A stretch of 64,000 nucleotides of DNA from Heliopora coerulea (lineage: Eukaryota > Cnidaria > Anthozoa > Scleralcyonacea > Helioporidae). Below, in pieces: positions 17,301 to 52,332 of the stretch (position 1 is its first letter; every line of letters begins with the position of its first letter). The DNA is taken from the NCBI GenBank assembly GCA_030142905.1, contig JASJOG010000097.1, positions 310,001-374,000 of the forward strand, written 5' to 3'. The notes beneath the pieces are model-generated. The model saw only the letters and a list, made by a program, of their open reading frames with translations, was not told where the DNA came from and did no database searches. A program made the position numbers and the translations under genes.

Positions 17301-20300
17301 GGTTGAGGGGGGGAGAAGACTCCAAGGGTAGTCAAATTTTTTCGAATTGGGGTTGTCTTTTGGCCCTTCGTAATTTCGGGGAGAAATTGCATTCACTACA
17401 AAACTGACATACTTCGACGGTGAGTAATCAAAATATGAGTATTGTCTCCTTTTAACGATTTCTTGAATGAATTAGCATCCAGATTATGGAGGTGTATATT
17501 GACTTGAAGCTGATGATGACTTTAAAATAATGTCAAAATATCACTGTAGAAAATTGTGTCACTTGATTTATATTACTGCCAAAGCAACTCTGCCTATTTT
17601 GATATTAAATAACAGTTTGTTTTTGTTTGTTTTTTTGTGTTTCTTTTGTTTTTATGTTGTTTTTTGTTTTGTATTGTTTTTCCCACACGGAAAACATGTT
17701 TACTGTAGTTAAACCCGAGACTGAATGACGCTGGTCATTGGCAACGTACAGATTTGCTAAGATTTGACATATCAAGAGCAGACATACCAAAGAAAAGATC
17801 ATATATTTAATACCAGACTGTCATTTATATAAGGCTGATGATTATTATAAATACGAAATTACGAAATTACTGGAGTCAAGACCAAAGGATTTATTTATTT
17901 GTACGATGACTGGTGTTTACTCCACCTCAATTGCGATGTGCCTATTTTAGGAGACATGTTGAAAGAGCTATTTGCGGTAATATAATCAAGCCATCATCAC
18001 CAAAATTTACGCGAAGAAAATGGACGTAAACTCAATAGACGATGAAGTGAAAACTGGAAAAGCGTCAAACGAGCCTTCTGAATCCTCCATTGTAGATGAC
18101 CAGAAACGTCAAGCGTATGCTCAATAATATGATATCCAAAATCAAATGTTGAAAATTTGATCTCTCCAGAGTCATCCCCAAACGGTAGGAAACCGGAAGG
18201 TTCAATAAGAAAAAACTAAGTCAAATAACTAGTACCAATACAATACTCTCTTTATTGTAGACTGTGGTGACCTTTTGTTGGGCAGCTGTTCTCAGGATAG
18301 TTCTGTTCGAGTGTGGAGAATAGCGAAAGAGCAAGCAAATGATCTGGTGTCGAATAATATTGAGAGTCGAATGGAAAATCTAACATTAACTTCCAATAAG
18401 TTCACTGCGATTTGGAAAGGTAAGAAAAACATAAAGGAAAGGAGGAAGGTGAGAGGGAGAGAGAGAACGAAGGAAGACAAGCAGGAATCCAGACAGGGAG
18501 AAGCAGCACCGTCTTCCCCAAGCCTGGTCTTCATTCCTGGTTGGTTGGTTCGTTGGTTGGATGGTTATGTAAGTGGTTGCATGTTTGGTACTGTGGATAG
18601 GTCGATTGGTAGTTATATGGTTGTACGGATGTTTGGTTGAATATTTGGGTGTGTGGAGTCTTGCTTAGCTGAGGGGGTAATTACATGAAGAATTTCAACC
18701 CGGCCTTCGGATAAAATACTTGAAAAACGGAGCTCGCGATTACATGAAGAAATTTCAGCTTGGTTTGGCCTACCCGGGCTGAAAAGATGATTTGACAGAC
18801 GTGGGAAGATGCAAATTACCAAAAGAACAAAGGCTACCGACAAATTCCTGCCTAGGCTCACTTCCGATTTCAGTTTCAGCCCGGGCTGAAATATTTCATG
18901 TAATTGGGACATTTTTCAACCCGGTCTGCCGGGCTGAACTTTTTCCAAGCAATCAGCCCCTAAATGTTTAGTTGACAAGGATGATTGGTTCGTTGAAAAC
19001 ATGAAAGAAATGCGAGTTCATATAATTTCAATTTAGAGACTACATAAGTAAAACATTGAAAGACTGAAGATTCTCTTGGTGCTGACATGGAATGTTTATA
19101 GACATCAAGTGGACGGTGGATAGGAAAAGTTTGTTTTACAAGCTGAAGGAAAATACCACCAAATTGCTAAAACAACAATAATTTTTTGGTATTTAGATGA
19201 CAAACTGGATTTTTCCGTTGTGCTTGAAACAATTTTGACAGGCCATGAGGGGTGGGTCTACGGCATAAGTTGGCACCCAAAAATACCACAAGGTAAGCGG
19301 TTAAAAGGAAAATTATCAGAAACTACTCAAGCACACCTCTTTCTTTTGTAACTAGAGAATCCGTGAATAAAAACGACTTAATTCATAACGTGAATGTTTT
19401 TCCCAAATTGTTAGTCAGTCCCAGAGTTAGTGAGAAAAATAATAACAATGATGTTGAGTTTGAGGATAGAATGTTCGTTGCCTAACCCTCTCCAGACGGT
19501 TGCGACTCCCATACTACTTTCTCTGGCTAATTTCAAACGATGATAGTCGTGAATGGCTGGCCTACCGTCAAGAAAGAGTTCAAAACTATCTCATTAAGCC
19601 TTTTCATTACGGTAACTATTATTTAGTATTTTACTCTAGCTAGAACCAGACGAGTTGCTCGTCAACGGGAGACGTACCCTCAGGAAAGATTTAAACGATT
19701 AAGAAGTCTAACTTTCAGATTAGCCCGCCTTATCTTTGTTCAACCGAAACAATACACTGGAATTTGAATAGTCTCAACTGAGAACAATTGTGACAACTTG
19801 CTGTTGTGTTGATTCTTTTATACACGTAACTGATACAATATGTAAATAATGGGAGATTTGAGATCTTAAGGCATTCTGTCCTTGAAGTTCAAAAAGTGCA
19901 ATTGTAGAAGAGTTGAGGGGAAAACGAGCCGTTGTTTGATGTGAGGAAAGCTGTACGAAATCAATTTGCAAATTTGAATGAGATAAGAGAGAGATCGTCG
20001 TCGCGTAAAGGGAAGAATGAAGCTGACGATCTACTGTATTTTTTTACGACCGAAGCTTTGGAACTTGAAAGAAATTCTTGTCCAAGAAAGAAACGAACTA
20101 CTCTTTTCGATAACCTACTCAGGATAACCAATGATTATGAAAATTTGTTTGAATTTTTCGATTTCCATACGAAATTTTTCGTAGGATGAATAAAAGTTAA
20201 AATAACGTTTCAGAAAAGGTGAACATCAATCTATTTTGTAGTTAAGGGGAATAAAGTTTCATAGATTGTGCATGAACCAATAAGTGTGGGTTTGTGGAAA

Positions 20301-23300
20301 ACAGAATTAGAAATAAAGCCAATGAGCAGTAAAATGTTGATTTCTAGGAATAGTAATGACCAGTCAGTTTCTGTTTCTGCAGTGAAACTGGTACTGCGTC
20401 GTTTTTTAAGTTAAATAATTAAGAAAGGGTTAAATATGTTCGGTTAAAAGGAAAAGACGAAAACAATCATCAGCATACTTGCGGTAAAAAACGTGTTTGA
20501 AACCAGTGAGGCAATTGTTAATTCGAAAGAGCAGGAAAATGATCGTCAAGGTAGGCCCAAGTGGGGCCCATTTAAAGAACTGGCGTTTATTATAAGCTTT
20601 AAGTTATTTACAAATCTTTCTGTTTTTCTCGTACCAAAGCCCATATAATAACAATTCTAACTTTATTTTAGGGAACAGAATGCATCAACCACTTTGTTTA
20701 ATGTCGTCTTCAATGGATAAAACAATAGTTGTGTGGAGGTTGGACGAACAATCCGGGGTGTGGGTGGATGAAGTGAGTCTTTGAGTGAAAAGCCATTAAT
20801 GTGTGTAGGCTGGATAGTTGATGAGTATAAAAGTTAAAGATTGGTAAACTGGGAGTAACAATTAAGGTCACCTATAAGGTACTGCTTTATTTTCAGAATC
20901 ATCCTCAGGGTAAGATAAAGGGAATATTTTATGAATTGACTTACGCTGCTGAAGTCAACTACAAAAGTTGACTAGAGCGGGATTCGAACTCGTATGAAGA
21001 TGCGAAACCCGAAGTGGTTTCCGAACCGCTGCTTTACCAATTGACCTATCAAATCATCTGGGAAAAGTATGCTCTTTTAATCCATTGTAAGTGCGCGAGG
21101 GATTCTCATGACAACTTAACGCTCGATATCCGTGAGAATTTGCAGTGTTTCGACTCTTTCAGAATCACCCTCAGGGTATAACACCTGGCAAAAGAACTGC
21201 CAAACAGATGGTTGAGACGGTGGACGGATACAGACAAAACCAAACGATGGATGAACTGAAAAGTACATGAAGGGATAGATGAATGTATGAATGGATGCCT
21301 GGTAGATATTAGAGAGATTATTGTTTTGGGCAACTACTATCTTTGTCATCTTCAAACCTTTCGCACGTCTAATGTTGACACAGCAAAAATACCATTACAG
21401 GGGCTTTCACCGATATTTTAATTTACACGGTCATTATTACAAGATGGAATTCTGAGAAAGCTAAGATATACATGTGGCGTTAGTTAAAAGTTGAAAGTGG
21501 TAAACGAACGTTTTCCGTTTACGTGGTCATCTTCAGGTGATAAACATGACTTTTAGATTGAAATGACACTATCACGTCATTCTCTGTGTGGAATAGGGAA
21601 AATAGAAATATCGAAGCTTTTTGTTGAGTATAGGCTAGTATTTAGAGATAAGAAGGGCTTTGATTATAGCTCTTTTATTCCAGAGTTGCCAAGTTAGAAA
21701 GTGCTGCGTATTTGAAGCTAGATATCAGGTCGATACTGAAACCTTTAGGTTTATCTTCATGATCCAGTATATCGTTGTTAATGGTGAGAATTTTCATACA
21801 TACAGTGGAACCCCGCCTTACGACCACCCCGTTAATACGACCACTTTTTTTTTCCCCGAATAAGAGCTAACTTTTTTTCTTATCTGAAAACCTCGTTAAT
21901 ACGACCACCTCGTTAATACGACCAACGACCATATTTTGATGTCCCCTACTGTTTAATACGACCACTGAACGTGTTGAGTAATGCCATTTTTGATATCAAA
22001 TTCCCGACATGACTCCTTCGACGTTACCGGCGGAAATACGAGTGTATGCACGCGCAGGCTATGAAAAGCGCCGAATCTGTCAGCGATCCATATTTCACAC
22101 TTTTTCTAATTTAATCAGTGCAAAATTTTCACACATGTCTTGACGATTTTTCTGATTTATTACCTTTTGTCCGAACACGCTTCGCAGCTTTGTGTATAAG
22201 CACTTTGACCAGTCATCATGTTTTCAAGTTGTAAGCGGAAACGGCAGGAACTTGACTTACAAAAACGTTACGAAGTCGTGATATTTAAGCAAAAGAACCC
22301 TATTGCCAGCGCAAGAAAAATTGCAGAGCACTTTAATTGTGGGAAAACCCAGATTCAAAGCATCTTATTAAAGAAAGATGAGATTGTTAAAGACTATGAG
22401 GCCAATGTTAGGGGCACTATCAAACGGTCAAGAGGTGCCCAGCATGAAAATATCGACAACGCTTTACTCGACTGGTTTGGAAAAGCAAGATCAAAAAACA
22501 TTCCAATTACAGGACCAATGCTTCAAGAAAAGGCTACAAAAATAGCAGAAGTTCTAGAAGTTCCACAAGAGAAATTCAAGGCTTCGAACGGATGGCTGGA
22601 TCGTTTTAAAAAGAGATGTGGTATCAGGGCAAAGGTCATTTCAGGAGAGTCAGGGGATGTTAGAGAAGAAACAGTAGATTCGTGGAAGGAAAGACTCCCG
22701 GAAATTTTGGAATGACGAGAACCTCGCGATATCTGGAATATGGATGAAACAGGTCAGTTTTTCTGAGCCCTTCCAAACAAATCAGTGGTCGAAGTTTCCC
22801 AGAATTGCACCGGCGAAAAAACGTCAAAGCATAGGATTACTTGTGCGTTCTTTGTCAACGCTAGTGGTGGAAAAGAAAAGCCAATCGTAATTGGAAAATC
22901 AGCAAGACCAAGATGTTTTAAAGGCATCTGAGATTTGGATAACTTACCGTGCCAATATTTCAACCAACCAAAAGCCTGGATGGAAGGTAGCATCATGATG
23001 GAAATTCTATCAAAACTCAATCGGAGACTGAGACGAGAAAACAGAAGAATTCTCTTGTTTATGGACAATGCCCCTTGCTACCCTGAAGACCTGGATGAAA
23101 TGTATGAGCAAATCAAAATCGTCTTCTTGCCCAAAAACACGACATCACGACTGCAGCCACTTGATCTCGGTATTATTCAAGCTTTTAAGCTCCAGTATTA
23201 TAAACGCCTGCTTACACACGTTGTCAGTAAAGTGGATGAGTGTATTTCTGCATCGGAAGTATGCAAGTCTGTTGATATTCTTCAGGCAATTAGATGGACG

Positions 23301-26300
23301 GCGATAGCGTGGAATGAAGTTTCCGAAACAACAGTTGTCAAGTGTTTCATCATGGCAGGTATCTTGGATTCCGAAGGAAACACGAATACAGTAGATTCCA
23401 GTGGCAGTGACGTTGATCCATTTGCAGATCTTGAAAGCGAACTTGTTGCAGTTCAAGTCTTGGCAAATGAGACCAATGAAGACAATACAGTTTCATTGAG
23501 ACAAGTGGTAGGTGGATGTCTTGATGCACCATTTTGTCAAGAACTTCCAGACAAATGGGAAGACAGCTTTTTTCGGCAAGTAGGACGTGAACAAATCGAT
23601 TCAACCACTGCAAGCGAAGAAAATCACGAGGACGGTAATGATGAGGTTGAAGAGCTCCCGACAGCGCCAAAACTATCCTCGTATCGAACGGCAATATCCT
23701 CAATGCAGGATGCTTTGGATTTTCTCGAACAGAAAGGAAATTCAAAAACGGCAAATGAGCTCGCCAGAGTAATCTGCCAAGCTCAAACCGATTGGCATGA
23801 GTGTCGGAGAAACCAGCGGAAGCTTACAGATTTTTTTAAACCTGAAGAAATTTAAATAACTAATGTAGGGGCTTATCATCAAGGTTATTCATCTCATTTG
23901 GTCAATTTTGTTGAGTTGTGTTCAGTTAATAAAATTTATTTGTGGATTATTTTGTGGTTTTAGCGTTATGCTAATTGAAATCTGACTCCGTTTGCCATGA
24001 CGTCATTTAAAAAAACATTTGTTACGTATCTGATCCACCCCCGTTAATACGACCAAATTTTTTCGGCCCAACAGTGGTCGTATTAACGGGGTTCCACTGT
24101 ACATTCAAATTTTAAAGGCACTTGCATATGTAAGAGATTTTATTTCGTTTTTTGAGGCATAAGTCTTTGTGCTCCAAATGGTTGCGAACTTGACCACAAC
24201 GTTTAGAAGACTTTCAAAGGAGATTTCGACAATCATCAAACCATTGTGATTGAATTAGGGTTTCGGAAGTATTGGGGTTCTGGTATTGAAATTCTGAATA
24301 ATGTTCATAATTAATTTATACTGTAGGAGTAATCTTTTTGATCAAAATTTTACATGGCACATAATTTGTCTTTGTTAACATTATTCTGATTTTTTTTCTT
24401 TAGGTTCGCGTGGGAGAGGTTGGCGGAAACACGCTGGGTTTTTATGGTGGAACATTTAGTCCAGACGGAAATAGGATTCTGGCTCATAGTTACCAGGGGG
24501 CGTTGCACATGTGGAAAAAGCAAACTGACACGACGGTGAGTTTCTGTCATTACAGTGGCTCTTAACTTACGTGAATTACCTTGTTTAGATTTTAGTATTT
24601 ATTAGTACACAGAATTGTTTTACAAAAGAATATGCGTGCAGTAATTCATCCAACCATACATCCGCCGAACCAACCACCCACCAAAGCAGCCAGTCATTTC
24701 AACCTCGCTTTCACGGCTCTTTGTAAGGAGCTGCTTCAAGATTATGGAAAATCCAAAACAGTGGCAACAAATGCATGGTCGTGGAAAAGGCCAGTTGATA
24801 ATAAGTAGTATTTTCATTAAGTAGACACAAGAGTTTGAGGAAACGTCATATTGTTTACTTGTTAATTTTGCTGAGCTTTCCTCCCGGACACTCAGGACTT
24901 CCCCAGATCAAGAACTGAAATTTGATGTTGACTAAGTGTTTATATTCGTCAAAATCTTATTACAACGGATTCACGGTAATGGCATGTTTCAGGATGTCAC
25001 GACGCCAACTGAAAGAAATTTCAACCATTTTGTTCCTAACAAATAATCACATTGACAGATAACCTGACAGTCTACGCCCAATTTAAAAGGAGATATTTAC
25101 CAGAGGATTGTTAATAGAATAAATTTAGGAAAAAAGGGGCTGTCCAAGTATCATTTAAAGGCTGTCCCTCTTGCGGAATGGTGGCATGTTTAAATATTTC
25201 TATTGATTGCCGTATTCTTCTAGTAAAGTCATCTTTAGCGTTACTCAGAAGAGAGGTTTTGTCCCATTCTATTCTATGGCCCGTCTCCCAGTCGTGTTTT
25301 GCCACGGATGATTTCTCGATTTGACCTTTAACCCAGCACGTGTAATGTTATTTTTTGCACTATAAAACTGTTAAGTAGTATTTTGTTCGTTGAGTTATTA
25401 TGAACGCAGAACAAATTGTTGTTATTTAGAGTAAATATCTGAACTTGAAAACAATTAACTCGATAGATATCTTGAATTTTTGTGTAAATTCTGGGTCAGC
25501 TTTAAAACGAACAAAATACAGTTTATTTTAGCTAGCACATGTCTCGACCCCCCTGAACTCTATTACGCCTGAAAGGCTGATTTCAGCCAATGATTGGGAG
25601 TGAAGCCAAACATTGCGGATGCGGAGGCTTTTTTGGACATTAGTTCCAGGTCCTAAAGGATCATGAACGTCAAACGAGCGCATAAAAGATTTAAACTAAT
25701 GTCCCAAAAGGCTTTCATTTCCGCCATTTTTGGCCTCAATTTTTTATTGACAGTTAACCTTCCAGTTTTAATAGATTTCAGTGGCCAGAGCCCTCTGTTC
25801 CCGCCATTTTCAAATTTTCCACATTCTAAGTCCAACCTCGTATAAATTGCTTTGGGTGATGCGTTGCCGTTCATCTACCTTCTACCGTCTCATCCATGTT
25901 TTGTGGTTTATAAGTTGATTCTGATGATTCTGTGAATTGAAATATCATTCGGAGGTGTTACGTGGGATGTCACTCTGACCTTTTTGTTGCCTCTAAAGTC
26001 CATTTCAAAGCACGTTGAAACATTGGTTGTTGAAGTTATTGCACACCTGTGTACATAGAGATTATATACTAACTAGAGGGGCATTGCAGCTGTATGTCAC
26101 CCAACCTAGGGGGGAAATTAGGTAAAAAGTTAAAAGGTTGATAACTGCCGTGACTGATCTCAAAGAATTCCAACGTTTCGAGCAAAGGCCCTTCGTCAGA
26201 AGAACACGTTTCTTTCTTGACGAAGGCCTTTGCTCGAAACGTTGGAATTCTTTGAGATCAGTCACAGCAGTTATCAACCTTTGAACTTTTTACCTTATTT

Positions 26301-27061: not shown

Positions 27062-30000
27062 ACCAAAGTCGGTTATGAACCCGAACGGGTTAAACGTTTC
27101 ACCAGTGATTGCCCAATTTTCTGCGAAATGATGTGGAATTTTGGTGAGAAGTCATGTGGAGTTTTCGTGAAGGTAGTTAAATACCTGACATACATCCATT
27201 TCTTCCTGTTCATCAGATACATCTCTTCTTCTATAATCCTGAATACTGACGTTCCTATTCGCTGTGTTAAAGCCGGTGATTCTTGTCCATGCACTGGCAT
27301 CTATTTATGTCTGGGGACGTGGGGTGATTACAAAAGTCATAGCAAAATTCTTATCCTTTGATAAACCTGGCATTTCTGGTGACATCCTTAGAGGAACAGA
27401 TATTAAGTGTATAGCTACGCTCGTTCAATATGCGAATGTTCGTCAAGCTTAAATGTTTTTACGTTCTACTTTCGGATTGAATGCGCATTTTCAGGGGCCG
27501 AAATTAGCTTTTTAAGAATCTTTTCCGATATAGGCGTCCAAGATGAAATCTAGTCGCCACGTTTGGGTGTTACTGCTCAGCAGTAGTACGCAAAACAAGA
27601 TGACGGAGAATACGAACATTCGGAATGTTGTGTACGAATCATTAAATAACAAATGGCTGGTTGTATATTTGTACCTTTCTCTTGCAAATACTTGGAATTG
27701 AAATTATGATTTTTTTGGTCTTAACATCAGTTCTCGAAGAGGTTTGGCATCTTGATTTGTGATCGTACAATGGGCCACTTTGTCAGTCTTTAAATTTGGT
27801 CGTTTCTGACGACTGGACGACCGTAAATTTCGGACCCTGAATTTGCTGCTGATTTGCTGTAAGAAGGTTATGTGTTCGATCCAGCTCCAGGATTAGAAAA
27901 CATTTTCCGGGGGATTTGAGATTGACGAACCTTCGCATATCTTCTGTTATAGCCCAAGCTCCCACATACAGTATGACAACGTGTAACATTTGTTAAGTCG
28001 ATGATTACAATGCTTTATTGAGACATCAATCAATTACGATAAGGGATCTCACATTTGCCCACAACTTTGTATCGTATGAATTGTTTTTGTTACAAGCTGG
28101 ATGCCCCTGTATTTTGAATTGTCCACTATATATTACGTGGTAACTTTGTTTCTTTAACAGGCAACACATTCATGGGAAGCAACCGTGACAGTCAGCGGCC
28201 ATTTTGGTCCTGTGCAGGTGTTTATAATTAAAAGTGTGTTATTAAACGTGTGTTCTGACTTTTGCTCCACCAGAAGTGACGACGTACATTCACTGATGAT
28301 GAAATGTGTAGGATTCACCAATATGTTTAAACGTTAAATGCGGTACGGGAGACGTATGGTCGACAAAGCGCCTTACAATTAATGTCGCCAATGCAAGTCT
28401 TGCCTTCACTTTGATATTTACATCATTTAACGTTGAGATTGCTGATAGTTTATTAGCTGTATAGTGAGTGTTGACTGATTGATTTTTTGCTATTGTGATG
28501 ATGCTAAAATTTAAGACGTCAATTCCGACATTTGCTTATAAAAACAGGTTATGAGAGGTTTTTTGATGTTCTAATTCTCGCTAGCCTACTTGCACTGCTT
28601 TTGCGTCACAACTCTCAGTTCTCGACTTGCAGGTCGCATTAGGAATCCCAACAGAAATTCAAGTCGCTCAAGTTTCTTTTTTGCTCAGGCTGTTTAATAT
28701 ATATGTTATAAGTTATTATTTACACTAATATCATTCAAATATAGTTTTTCCTGAACTTAAAAATTCTCAGGCTTAAGTCAGCATATTTTTGACGTGCGTG
28801 ACCGGCTCTATGATACCAGTGTGAAAGTATACGCTTATTTTTACCGAGGAAAGAAGACTAGGTAACGTGAAAGCACGTAATAAAAACCTGTTTCGTCGAA
28901 CTATTTCAATTTTTTTAAACCTTTGCGAGAAGATTTTCTAAGCCCTCAAAGTACATTAAAGTCCTCGCCAAACGCGCTACTACAAATACACCTACCTACT
29001 TCACTTGTTATTTATGATTTTCATACCCCTTCTTTTTGTTGTTCAGATTCTTCTGCATTCTTTTCTTTCCTTTTCTCTTTTCCTTTTTCTTTCTTTTCGG
29101 TTCTTTTTCTGTTATTTTAGTTTGTTTCCTTTTCTTTTCTTCTCCTTTATCCTTTCTTCCCTTTTCTTTTCCGTTTATTTCTTTTGTTTTCTATCCTGTT
29201 TCTTTCCCTTTCTTTTCTCTTATTTCCTTCTTCCTTTTTTCTGTTTCTTTTCTTCTCTTTTTTCTTTTCTTTTTTCTTTTCTATTCTTTTCCTTCTTTTC
29301 CTTCTCTTCTCTTCTTTTCTTATCTTACGTCCTTTTACATTTTCTAAGTCGTGTTTATTATCAGGATGTTGCTTGGGATACAGAAGGTGGGGAATTCCTC
29401 GTCACTTTGAGCTCAGACCAAACCACCAGAATTCACGCACCTTGGAGAAGGCAAGGACACGAGGTATAAAATGTGCTATTTTTTATTAATCGTGCTGCTC
29501 GAAGGTAACTGCTTAGTTAAAGTAAAGTGAAGTACCTTTATTTATACTGGATAACACTATCAGCTACCTAAGCTGTTCTCCTAGAGGTCCAGTAAGGGCC
29601 ACCCCTCGTGTGTCCAGTGTTACTACATGAGGAAATCGGAGTGCCGGGAGAAAACCTGCGATCCTTGGTAGAGTCGAACTGTACAATACTCTTCTCACAT
29701 GTGACAAAAGTAACTTTAATCAGATAACTGCACGGAGCCGGAATCGAACCCTAGTCACAGAGGTGAGAGACCCGTGCACTACCACTGTGCTTTCTTGTAA
29801 ATGAACCAACTGTACCCTAGAATTCCGAAAGTAGCGGCCCTCGTTACTGTCGGATTTAGCAGGCCTTAAGCCTAGTTTTCGTTAAGTCGCAACAATCACA
29901 AAAGCCGTGTCGTAGCAGTCGTCGCAACCCTTGCGATTTGATGGAAAACGTGAATCGAAGTGACTTGCGGCTCAAGCGACTAAATCGCAAATATAGGATT

Positions 30001-49090: not shown

Positions 49091-50514
49091 GTTATCTCAG
49101 TCGCGACAATGTGAAATTGAAATAAACTCATCTTTTAGTTTTGTTATTGTTTCCAAAGGGAAAGTGTCCTCATTAATTGAAAATGATGAAAATTAGAATA
49201 AGGGCCCATCTTCAAGGTCACAGAATTAAAAATTATCTACAATAATTAATGCGTAAATAGGATATTAACGAACATTAACAATTACTACATAAACTATCCA
49301 CTAGTACCAGAAAAGTCCGCTTTTAACTATGTTACAGAAGCCCCGAGGGATTCATAATATTTCATTCGTTTGTCATCTATAACCAACGGCGCCCACGAAC
49401 TCTGATCCACCCATCGGTTCCAGATCCACCAATTCGAAAGAAAGCAACCTACAGTTGATCTGAAATTGTTTCTTAGCATTGGCGATCGAGTGGATTCAAG
49501 TTAAATTTGAAATTAATTTGCGTGAGTATGTTGTTCAAAGACACCAATAAAAAGATAATTTGGACACTTACAAACACACGAGGACTAAAGCCGTGTTCAT
49601 ACTAGCATCGCAGGCCTGGCCAGATCCTGACCTGGGACAAGATTTTTGATAGTGTGTACGGGTTTTACCTTGCCTAGACCTGACCTGGGCCTGACCTTGG
49701 CCATCAAAACCAGACCAGCAAAAGTAACCGGACTACGCCTCAATCTTCCTGGTGTGAACGGGTTTTACCTGGCCCTGGCCCTGGCCTGGCCCCGCTCAAA
49801 TTACCGTGACAACGAGCGCTACCGTTAAACTGTTAATAGAGTTTTTTAAATGTAATGTTACTAGTTGAGCAGTGGCGTAGCAATAGGGGGATTCAGATTG
49901 TTCATTGAACTAGGACCCCCAACTGTCCAGGGGCCCCCAAGGGTTCCAAAATTCTGAGGCAATCGATCATTCCGCTGACTGCCTAATACTTCTTGCCATG
50001 CCTCTCCTCAACAAATAAGCCAGTGAAGAAAACAGCAAAAGACTATTAAAAGTTTAGTTGAAACATATAGTTCATACGTGTATCCTTGAAAATAAAGCAC
50101 GAGTAGTGAATTTTGAAGCCTACATGACCCTTCAATTTTGAACAACACATGAATTATAAGCTGCCTCACTTGTCAACAATAAAAGAACTCGAAGCCTCAA
50201 ACTTTTTCGTGTTTTGCCTCATTTGATCATACCAACAACTATTTTGAACACTTTTTTGTCTTTCTCTTGTGGTTGGACACAATCTTTATGTCATTCAGCA
50301 TTTCTTGTTTTCATAAGGTATGTGAAAAGAAGGAAATTTATCTGGGCTCAGCTACAAGCTTTTGGATCTGACTAAGTTCAACAAGGTGGGAGAGCTGGCT
50401 CAAATCTGTATCACCGCTTATTGCGCAGTATCCCATCATCCTCAAGACATTCGCACATTTGAAGTTGTCCTCCAAGAGTGCGGATGTTCGCCGCAGCGCT
50501 GAGCACCGAACGAA

Positions 50515-51346
50515 ATGCATTTTTTGGTTTCACTTTTGATGTGGGAAAAGATTCTGCGTGCCGTTTATGCAGTCTCCAAGCAACTGCCGTCAAAATCTGC
50601 GAATCTAAGTGCATCAGTGGTTCTCTTGGGTGAAACTGTTACTTTTATTTCAACACTGAGAAATGATTTCGATAACATTTGTCAATTAGCAGAAGATATA
50701 GCGAAAAAATGGGGTGTTGAAACTTCATTCAATGGGACCAGAATTCGAACAAGGAAGAGATTTTTTGATGAACTCTTGAATGATGCTTGCCTGGAAAGTC
50801 CTCGTGATCGATTCAGAATTCATGTCTTTCTTCCTGTGGTGGACACCTGCTTAGGGCATTTGAAAACCCGGTTTGGATCATTTCGTTGTATTGTGGATTT
50901 ATTTTCATTTTTGTTCCTCCAGCAGCTAACAGAACTATCGGAAACAGATTTGAAAATCCCAGTGATGAAATTCACTACAGTGCACAATGCTGATGTATCT
51001 CCTGATCTTCTGCGACAGATTTTGGCATTCGGAGAACTTCATTCCAAGAGCAGAAAACCCACAGGACATCCTGAATACCATTATGAAGCTGGAACTTAAC
51101 TCATGTTTTCCAGATTTGGTCACCTCGTACTTTCTCTTTCTTACCTTGCCAGTGACTACAGCTAGCAACGAGCGCACCGTCTTAAAGTTAAAATTGATAC
51201 AAACGTATCTTCGATCCTCAATGGCGCAAGGACGATTGTCAGATTTGGCATTTCTCAGCGTTGAAAGAGACCGATTTTCCGATGTTGACCGGGATAATAT
51301 CCTGAGAACTTTTGCCAATGCTAAAGCACGAAAACATGTTTTCTAA
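50515..51346 (+). pseudogene. hAT transposase (ZMYM1-like), C-terminal half, frameshifted
   Basis: Frame 1 (50515-51099) encodes WGVETSFNGTRIRTRKRFFD and FRIHVFLPVVDTCLGHLKTR, the linker and RNase H-fold part found in ZMYM1-like hAT proteins. Near 51060 the coding sequence moves to another frame, which runs to 51346 and encodes the hAT dimerisation block: DLVTSYFLFLTLPVTTASNE then RSSMAQGRLSDLAFLSVERD. The usual S-ER-F-KLK pattern is kept as S-ER-V-KLK. The N-terminal half is not open. Frames on the minus strand here are shadows. Confidence 0.85.
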
Positions 51347-51401
51347 CTGATTCAGATTGTCAAAAAATTAGACGTATATTTCGTTTTATTATCTCAATAA
51401 A

Positions 51402-51427
51402 TAATATATATGTATATATATATATAT
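51402..51427. repeat. (TA)n microsatellite, left border of the hammerhead segment
   Basis: Nearly pure TA with one G. Confidence 0.9.
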
Positions 51428-51670
51428 CTGTCTGTAGTTAGATATCGCTCTATGGCCTCTTGGTTCATATTGAGCACTCTACAGGATGAGTCATGCCGCT
51501 AGCGAATTTGCGCACGCTCACTAGTCTCTAGTTAGAGCACTCTGGCAAGGCTTAGATGTACCACAAGTGTGGGACATTTGAATTGCCTATATAATATAGG
51601 CTTCTCCATCCTGCTCGTCAGCACTACACTGATGAGGCTCAGTAGGCCGAAACGGTTCCGTCTGTAGTAG
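51428..51670 (+). mobile_element. Penelope-like/retrozyme-like insert between TA tracts
   Basis: A 243-base segment bounded by TA tracts (51402-51427, 51671-51696), with GAGCACTC at 51475 and 51534 and a hammerhead motif at its end. It starts ctgtctgtagttag and ends tctgtagtag, so the same ctgtagt string stands at both borders. Non-coding. Its type is inferred from the ribozyme and microsatellite setting known for Penelope-like elements. Confidence 0.55.
51623..51668 (+). ncRNA. Type I hammerhead ribozyme motif, complete core
   Basis: In order: stem I 5' half ACTACA (51623-51628), CTGATGA (51629-51635), stem II GGC...GCC closed by a short loop (51636-51648), GAAA (51649-51652), stem III from A-C-G-G to C-C-G-T (51652-51661), then GTC (51660-51662) as cleavage triplet and stem I 3' half TGTAGT (51663-51668). 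Stem I is a perfect six-base match and every invariant core base of the hammerhead is present. Stem III is short with a tiny loop, as in ribozymes of Penelope-like elements and retrozymes. Activity is inferred. Confidence 0.8.
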
Positions 51671-51801
51671 TTATATATATATATATATATATATAACTAC
51701 ATATATGATGAAAAGTTTGTTCTCAAGCTTTTATCTCAATACATATATCCAAGCTTACAAACATCTACACTTAGTAAGATGAAATTTACATACATAACTA
51801 C

Positions 51802-51837
<36 letters not shown>
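51671..51837. repeat. TA microsatellites, right of the hammerhead segment
   Basis: TA runs at 51671-51696 and 51804-51837, separated by about 105 bases of non-repeat sequence. Both are ended by ataacta. Confidence 0.9.
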
Positions 51838-52332
51838 CTATACTATTGTTTTAACTATACTATTGTGTTTAACTATACTATTGTGTGTTTATTTTTGCAT
51901 TATGCCATTGATGGTAAATGAAATTTTAGCGAAGTAAGGGTGGGAGGGCCTCAACCCTTACTCTTGAACTGGGGCCTCTGAAACTCCAGCTGCACCACTG
52001 TAGTTGAGAGAAATTTACTGCGTTCTGTGAGTTCATTGAACCACGGCATACCTTACATTTAGGTTTTGTCGATATTAAGGTCAAATTCTCTGACAAACGA
52101 TGAGACCAAACTTCAGTTCATGCCACGACTTGAATGTAATCAAAAGAATCTTGCGTTATCAAGTTTCGATCACACAAAAAACCTCTGCCGGTGAAGCGTC
52201 ATTTTTCGTTTACAACAGCAATAACCAAAATCAGGGGAAAATTGGCGAGTCTGCGATTGTCAAAGCTAGTTTTGATTCTGTTGTTTGTCTGCTGACCCTT
52301 CTAGGCTAAAGTGAGGCCTGTTGTGTTAAGCC

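Follow-up and report, generated by a model that had tools for sequence, protein, structure and literature searches.

A 230-nt hammerhead retrozyme in an older hAT element of Heliopora coerulea: probable (TA)n-primed copying, with Penelope-like elements as the best candidate machinery

We analyzed a stretch of 64,000 nucleotides of the Heliopora coerulea genome (contig JASJOG010000097.1, positions 310,001 to 374,000 of the forward strand; the window, with coordinates counted from its first letter). Judged by its sequence anatomy, the hammerhead ribozyme at 51623-51668 forms the 3′ terminus of a metazoan-type retrozyme copy that is roughly one unit long. What is new here is that most copies of this retrozyme in the genome share one 3′ end, which is followed by (TA)n, and have scattered 5′ ends. 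The account that we consider likely is that a hammerhead retrozyme with a 230-nt unit sits in an older hAT element and was copied by (TA)n-primed reverse transcription, with the machinery of Penelope-like elements (PLEs) as the best candidate for its mobilization. A hammerhead inside a hAT is, by itself, ordinary; the (TA)n target, the common start and the scattered 5′ ends are concrete marks of reverse transcription primed at the target, from a template other than the cut linear RNA, and similar ones are found in several GIY-YIG PLE families of the same genome.

The ribozyme and the retrozyme unit

The ribozyme and the copy that contains it consist of the following parts.

51623..51668, plus strand: type I hammerhead ribozyme (strict descriptor, Rfam alignment and 33-copy alignment), with predicted cleavage after C51662
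51623-51628 with 51663-51668: stem I, ACTACA with TGTAGT
51629-51635: core CTGATGA
51636-51639 with 51645-51648: stem II, GGCT with GGCC, three Watson-Crick pairs and one U-G pair
51649-51651: core GAA
51652-51654 with 51659-51661: stem III, ACG with CGT
51428..51673, plus strand: retrozyme copy, slightly more than one unit (direct repeat and genome copies)
51433..51662, plus strand: one 230-nt unit, cleavage site to cleavage site (direct repeat and genome-wide unit junctions)

A type I hammerhead core had been proposed at this place from the letters of the window alone, and it is borne out by conserved genome copies and by a strict descriptor (stem I of at least 4 bp, stem II of at least 2, stem III of at least 3), whose single match on both strands of the window is this hammerhead. 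The conserved core and all three stems are present, with stem I open. The same descriptor gave five matches in 200 first-order Markov resamplings of the window, none of them with stems of at least 6, 3 and 3, and a chance hammerhead is ruled out by this result together with the genome copies. The covariance-model check suggested along with the proposal came out below the curated threshold: in a 73-base scan the full-length Rfam Hammerhead_1 alignment to 51623-51668 scored 24.2 bits (cut-off, 34), HH9 scored 17.4 bits (701-base scan), and a scan of the whole window returned no hammerhead at gathering score. That cut-off is a curator's threshold and no defining part of the fold; the genome copies settle the reality of the hammerhead. 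Two copies in locus L053 (fetched loci carry L numbers) scored 28.1 and 26.1 bits to Hammerhead_1, and on seven other loci Rfam gave no hammerhead at E ≤0.5, though cores were present by pattern. MicroRNA-model matches that Rfam reported at other loci sit on TA repeats and palindromes and were given no weight. For 65 nt in isolation, the minimum-free-energy fold is a different structure (z 0.31) and the centroid retains stems I and II.

In the assembly containing the window (about 430 Mb in 769 contigs), a loose hammerhead pattern gave 1945 and 2087 matches versus 284 and 282 for the same pattern read backward; among the matches listed, many are near the window ribozyme, and pairs are spaced 230 bases apart. 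We took 34 hammerheads from 26 loci and the window and aligned 33 of them, omitting that of L046, which is nearly identical to L045. In the 25 distinct sequences, 96.0% of the pair cells hold standard pairs, and at one stem I pair three of them have G-C in place of A-U, a compensatory change of both sides. Of 500 shuffles, 2 reached the covariation score, 5 the count of double-change cells and 14 the proportion of paired cells, as against 243 for the number of covarying pairs and 475 for the pair types. We conclude that stem covariation among the hammerhead copies is modest. In Viral_contigs, the exact 27-mer had no match, and the loose pattern yielded 29 loci.

The direct repeat 51427-51438 / 51657-51668 duplicates the 3′ side of the hammerhead, the region of the cleavage site, and the copy is therefore slightly longer than one 230-nt unit. 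The sequence-only reading had drawn the unit too small, missing both the 230-nt unit and (TA)n as an insertion target. Genome-wide there are 166 exact junctions of unit to unit (control, 0), a single array accounting for six of these, spaced 229 bases apart, and the 5′ part of the unit (u15-38) occurs at 594 genome places with at most three mismatches. The family thus shows what marks metazoan non-LTR retrozymes, namely a unit of ∼170-400 nt, a type I hammerhead and tandem copies. No long repeat was found flanking the copy, and no ORF of 120 aa lies within it, so that the reverse transcriptase (RT) plus GIY-YIG frame of a Penelope-like element is absent. Its G+C content is 48%. Of 200 shuffles, only one folded more stably than the 242-nt retrozyme RNA (z −2.71). 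In the minimum-energy fold of the linear RNA, and again in that of the circle, CTCGTCAG pairs with CTGATGAG of the hammerhead core, and this predicted pairing could shield the ribozyme in a circle.

The insertion site and the ends of the genome copies

The retrozyme lies in the 3′ part of a hAT element, whose parts and neighboring repeats are these.

49862..49869, unstranded: left copy of the 8-bp hAT target-site duplication, TAGTTGAG
49870..52000, plus strand: hAT element, host of the insertion (terminal inverted repeat CAGTGGCGTAGC at the left end, right end GCTGCACCACTG, target-site duplication)
51083..51346, plus strand: 3′ end of a decayed hAT transposase (Dimer_Tnp_hAT, PF05699, 32.5 bits), in a frame different from that of the ORF 50515-51099
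51413..51427, unstranded: (TA)n tract before the retrozyme (window sequence; a short TA tract is also present in the empty site L152)
51672..51695, unstranded: (TA)n tract directly after the retrozyme tail (window sequence)
51696..51804, minus strand: second repeated element, between TA tracts (genome loci)
51805..51836, unstranded: third (TA)n tract
51835..51886, unstranded: tandem repeat of 18 bp (2.9 copies) that borders the inserted stretch on the right
52001..52008, unstranded: right copy of the hAT target-site duplication

Nesting of the hammerhead in a hAT, as read earlier from the letters, agrees with the terminal inverted repeats, the 8-bp target-site duplication and the hAT C-terminal domain found here, and the ribozyme is of type I, the retrozyme/Penelope kind; the TA tracts said to flank it are likewise present in the window. 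The ORF at about 50515-51099 had no Pfam match. A genome search with hAT 49870-51380 gave 41 matches from 28 candidates, and in the 3′ regions fetched for 15 related hAT copies BLAST returned no retrozyme match. Both sides of the insertion site are visible in 13 of these 15 copies (L158 and L160 show the upstream side only). In six of them (L151, L152, L159, L161, L164 and L165) the site is empty: to within a few bases, window position ∼51410-51427 is joined to ∼51888-51909. In L152 this site holds the short TA tract GTTATATATATGTA, and in L157 it is occupied by another insertion, which ends ATCTCAGTTATATATA. We take the retrozyme to be a non-autonomous, probably non-LTR element inserted in a TA-rich spot of the 3′ part of the hAT.

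Several further features were seen nearby and elsewhere in the window. The repeat at 51696-51804 lies tail-to-tail with the retrozyme, and its minus-strand reading also ends TGTAGTTATATA; pieces of it, identified by eye, flank retrozymes in L049, L074, L095 and L174 as well. Frames with a Tc5-type HTH and DDE_1 at 22218-23855 are a pogo/Tigger-like transposon in two frames. Four tRNA-model matches (9650, 32590, 32909 and 37946) include three that are mutually similar and look, by eye, like tRNA-derived SINEs. The frames 18275-18640, which had no Pfam match, and 29005-29469 resemble exons of a gene for Elongator subunit 2, a WD-repeat protein.

At loci chosen by the hammerhead core, nearly all copies end ...CCGTC|TGTAGTTA and pass immediately into (TA)n, a 3′ end that lies 8 nt past the predicted ribozyme cut. 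The window copy carries a variant tail, with AGTTA at 51669-51673, and reads TGTAGT-AGTTA there. Tandem arrays read TGTAGTTAGATATCGC at the same position, which places the TGTAGTTA-(TA)n tail outside the unit. The exact junction of TGTAGTTA and (TA)n, GTTCCGTCTGTAGTTATATATATA, occurs 626 times genome-wide (reversed control, 0). A survey of 3′ ends that covered the window and 96 fetched loci yielded 57 retrozyme pieces; 51 have the standard end, and 47 of these have a TA tail as scored by a regular expression that matches 1.0% of window positions as background; without the 20 copies chosen by the tail itself, the figure is 27 of 31. Many (TA)n tails are long and pure. On the 5′ side, 38 of the 51 copies have TATA or ATAT within the 12 preceding nucleotides, versus a background of 8.8%. 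The 5′ ends themselves are scattered, with copy lengths from 28 to 393 nt.

Anchoring the search in the middle of the unit removes selection by the 3′ end. The best 40 of 1292 candidates were scored in this way, and 10 of the 39 full-length matches outside the window, all drawn from the best matches to the window, were fetched: all ten reach the hammerhead, and eight end at TGTAGTTA followed by TA-rich DNA, the exceptions (L168 and L169) ending elsewhere. In the survey, the standard end stands without the TA pattern in L055, L052, L127 and one copy in L098, and six pieces lack the standard end (L035, L048, L051, L056, L105 and L113); of these, L048 and L105 do carry a TA tail but have an altered core, and L113 is truncated where the locus ends. 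The sample is not random, since a single two-contig listing and GIY-YIG neighborhoods supplied 29 of the 31 hammerhead-core loci and the mid-anchored loci are best matches. As read from these copies, the common 3′ end, the TA target, the 5′ truncation and the multi-unit copies are directly apparent. Among the titles and abstracts of open-licence papers that our literature searches listed, we found none on (TA)n targeting or on a common 3′ end of animal retrozymes.

Two further ideas were set aside. Copies of about one unit, as run-off at the cut 5′ end would leave, number 5 of 51 (232-244 nt), too few to claim an excess. We also dropped a possible template jump in L050, noticed by eye, that would have left from the cut end of a family-B hammerhead RNA; the junction bases there are common to both sequences, which makes the joining point ambiguous.

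Penelope-like elements and the proposed mobilization cycle

Ends of PLEs in the same genome were read at loci from a GIY-YIG search in which the best 150 of 2962 candidates were scored. Twenty loci (L111-L130) were picked by length and range of the GIY-YIG match, and by eye the PLE ends in a TA-rich repeat in 13 of them (L112, L114, L118-L121, L123-L126 and L128-L130) and in (TC)n in two (L116 and L117); five ends were left unassigned (L111, L113, L115, L122 and L127). In one family the element stops at TATCTTGTCAG and (TA)n follows; L121 and L125 show a second site, GTGATAAGTTATATA. The end of another family is GATGATTTATATA (L118) or GAAGTTTTATATA (L119 and L120). The TATCTTGTCAG end occurs at 110 genome places with one mismatch allowed (control, 0), and among the matches listed at least 15 lie 282-485 nt downstream of a GIY-YIG match on the same strand. 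An earlier set of 30 loci has TA-rich ends in L059, L064, L070, L071, L073, L074, L078 and L081 and a (TC)n end in L084; half of the set (15 of 30) lacks (TA)6 downstream, at least some of these loci not being PLEs. An intact-looking PLE with RVT_1 and GIY-YIG (L088-L090) has a fixed end point and no microsatellite. Since the families compared are PLEs, (TA)n ends may not be special to them.

Other observations concern the PLEs and the remaining hammerheads. The subfamily of L084, L116 and L117 ends in (TC)n, as if the microsatellite preference varied among families. The RT plus GIY-YIG frames of L088-L090 span 630-690 aa, form an inverted pair in L088 and adjoin frames that by eye resemble Polinton-type proteins. 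Among the protein relatives listed for a PLE ORF (at least 120), the named organisms are anthozoans (Stylophora, Oculina, Pocillopora, Montipora, Porites, Dendronephthya and Exaiptasia), which points to a probably cnidarian genome. A second hammerhead family (CTGATGAGCTGTAGTACAGCGAAAC...GTC; L131-L137, also L050, L103 and L106) adjoins the window's retrozyme family in three loci, and six of its seven fetched copies end just after the cut in TA-rich DNA, the exception, L132, continuing without TA. Other hammerhead families, several of them in inverted pairs, have no such TA ends. Inverted pairs of hammerhead cores lie 0.7-5 kb apart in L139, L143 and L146 (and in L140/L141 and L144/L145), resembling the two ends of one element or inverted PLE copies.

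Target-primed reverse transcription is recognized by copies that share their 3′ end, vary at their 5′ end and sit at a preferred target, and the evidence favors the GIY-YIG PLEs of this genome as the best candidate machinery. We infer the cycle from transcription through cleavage, the circle and the priming step to the PLE partner as follows. The retrozyme would be transcribed as a unit or multi-unit RNA, its hammerheads would cut at the unit borders, and the monomer would be ligated into a circle, as in other animal retrozymes. An endonuclease, putatively that of a PLE, would nick microsatellite DNA of the (TA)n type, and the 3′ end so exposed, consisting of TA, would anneal within a retrozyme RNA that is circular or uncut, at the U/A-rich GUUAGAUAU immediately downstream of the cleavage site. 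At this start the RNA GUUAGAUAU matches (TA)n except for one base, and annealing of a nicked TA end to it is the simplest reading. Reverse transcription would run from that internal point back through the hammerhead and stop at a variable distance (28 to 393 nt), sometimes spanning more than one unit, and the 5′ end would then be joined to the remaining TA-rich DNA. Because the copied part starts 8 nt beyond the cut, the template would have been circular or uncut and not a linear cleavage product.

The main rival to a PLE-type mobilizer is the enzymes of LINEs. A LINE-type (non-PLE) RT that targets TA/AT repeats might have moved the retrozyme, starting at a linear RNA end, UGUAGUUA; textbook LINE-driven insertions also combine a fixed 3′ end with 5′ truncation. 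However, several PLE families of this genome likewise have fixed ends in (TA)n, and the hammerhead cuts 8 nt earlier, so that a linear RNA ending at that point would need a different origin. We regard this route as unlikely, if the most serious competitor. That the (TA)n is no target at all, and instead a tail made by RT slippage or by repeated copying at UA, fits the many long and pure tails and the textbook relationship of PLE reverse transcriptases to telomerase; we consider it improbable, given the TATA or ATAT found upstream of the 5′ end as well, in 38 of 51 copies, and the GTTATATATATGTA already present in the empty hAT site of L152. An existing TA tract may, on the other hand, have been lengthened at insertion. 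The sequence-only view that the hAT carried the hammerhead as cargo and spread it agrees with the position of the hammerhead between transposase and right end, but it is scarcely credible in the face of 15 related hAT 3′ regions without a retrozyme match, six clean empty sites and 626 tail junctions elsewhere. Thus, the hAT is the landing place of the retrozyme and no vehicle, and the retrozyme spreads by itself.

Our preferred reading, copying of the retrozyme by PLE machinery from nicked (TA)n, has a broader form, in which animal retrozymes would parasitize microsatellite-targeting PLEs, with the PLE endonuclease opening (TA)n, the TA end priming at a built-in U/A-rich site directly behind the hammerhead and an RNA circle as the template. 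We hold the arguments for and against this generalization to be about evenly balanced. If it were true, the hammerhead would both circularize the template and mark the place of the start signal, and the question of who moves animal retrozymes would be answered.

Comparison with known systems

The Naiad/Chlamys PLEs carry an N-terminal endonuclease and have an insertion bias for microsatellites, as seen here; unlike the window retrozyme, they have, to our knowledge, no canonical hammerheads.

The closest likeness is to metazoan non-LTR retrozymes, which have type I hammerheads and, in Acropora, units of about 225 and 245 bp in the available text of Cervera and de la Peña (2020; PMC7229834). By that description, the window retrozyme resembles them in its type I hammerhead, its apparently non-coding 230-nt unit, its low G+C content (48%), its tandem arrays from dimers up and the thousands of hammerheads per genome; the likeness to the coral units (∼225 and 245 bp) is drawn from description and concerns anatomy (PMC7229834). 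It differs in the common 3′ end and the (TA)n targets, neither of which is described in the corresponding portions of that account (PMC7229834). As far as the available passages go, the mobilizer of animal retrozymes was left open there, with PLEs named as strong or likely candidates (PMC7229834, PMC7761336). Plant LTR retrozymes share the non-coding retroelement with hammerheads (PMC4918200, in the text available), and differ in their type III hammerheads, LTRs and 4-bp target-site duplications as outlined in parts of PMC7229834 and PMC7761336.

A close mechanistic counterpart is the GIY-YIG PLE of Anolis, which has minimal hammerheads. In the available text of Frangieh et al. (2024; PMC11167929), its template is unprocessed RNA on which reverse transcription begins at internal points, its cut sites are AT-rich and its start site is non-homologous to the target. 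According to the same passages, the features shared with the window retrozyme are a fixed internal RT start downstream of the hammerhead, an unprocessed RNA template (presumed for the retrozyme) and a preference for AT-rich DNA (PMC11167929). Unlike the Anolis PLE as described there, the retrozyme has no protein of its own, its start lies 8 nt after the cut, and its start region resembles the target (PMC11167929).
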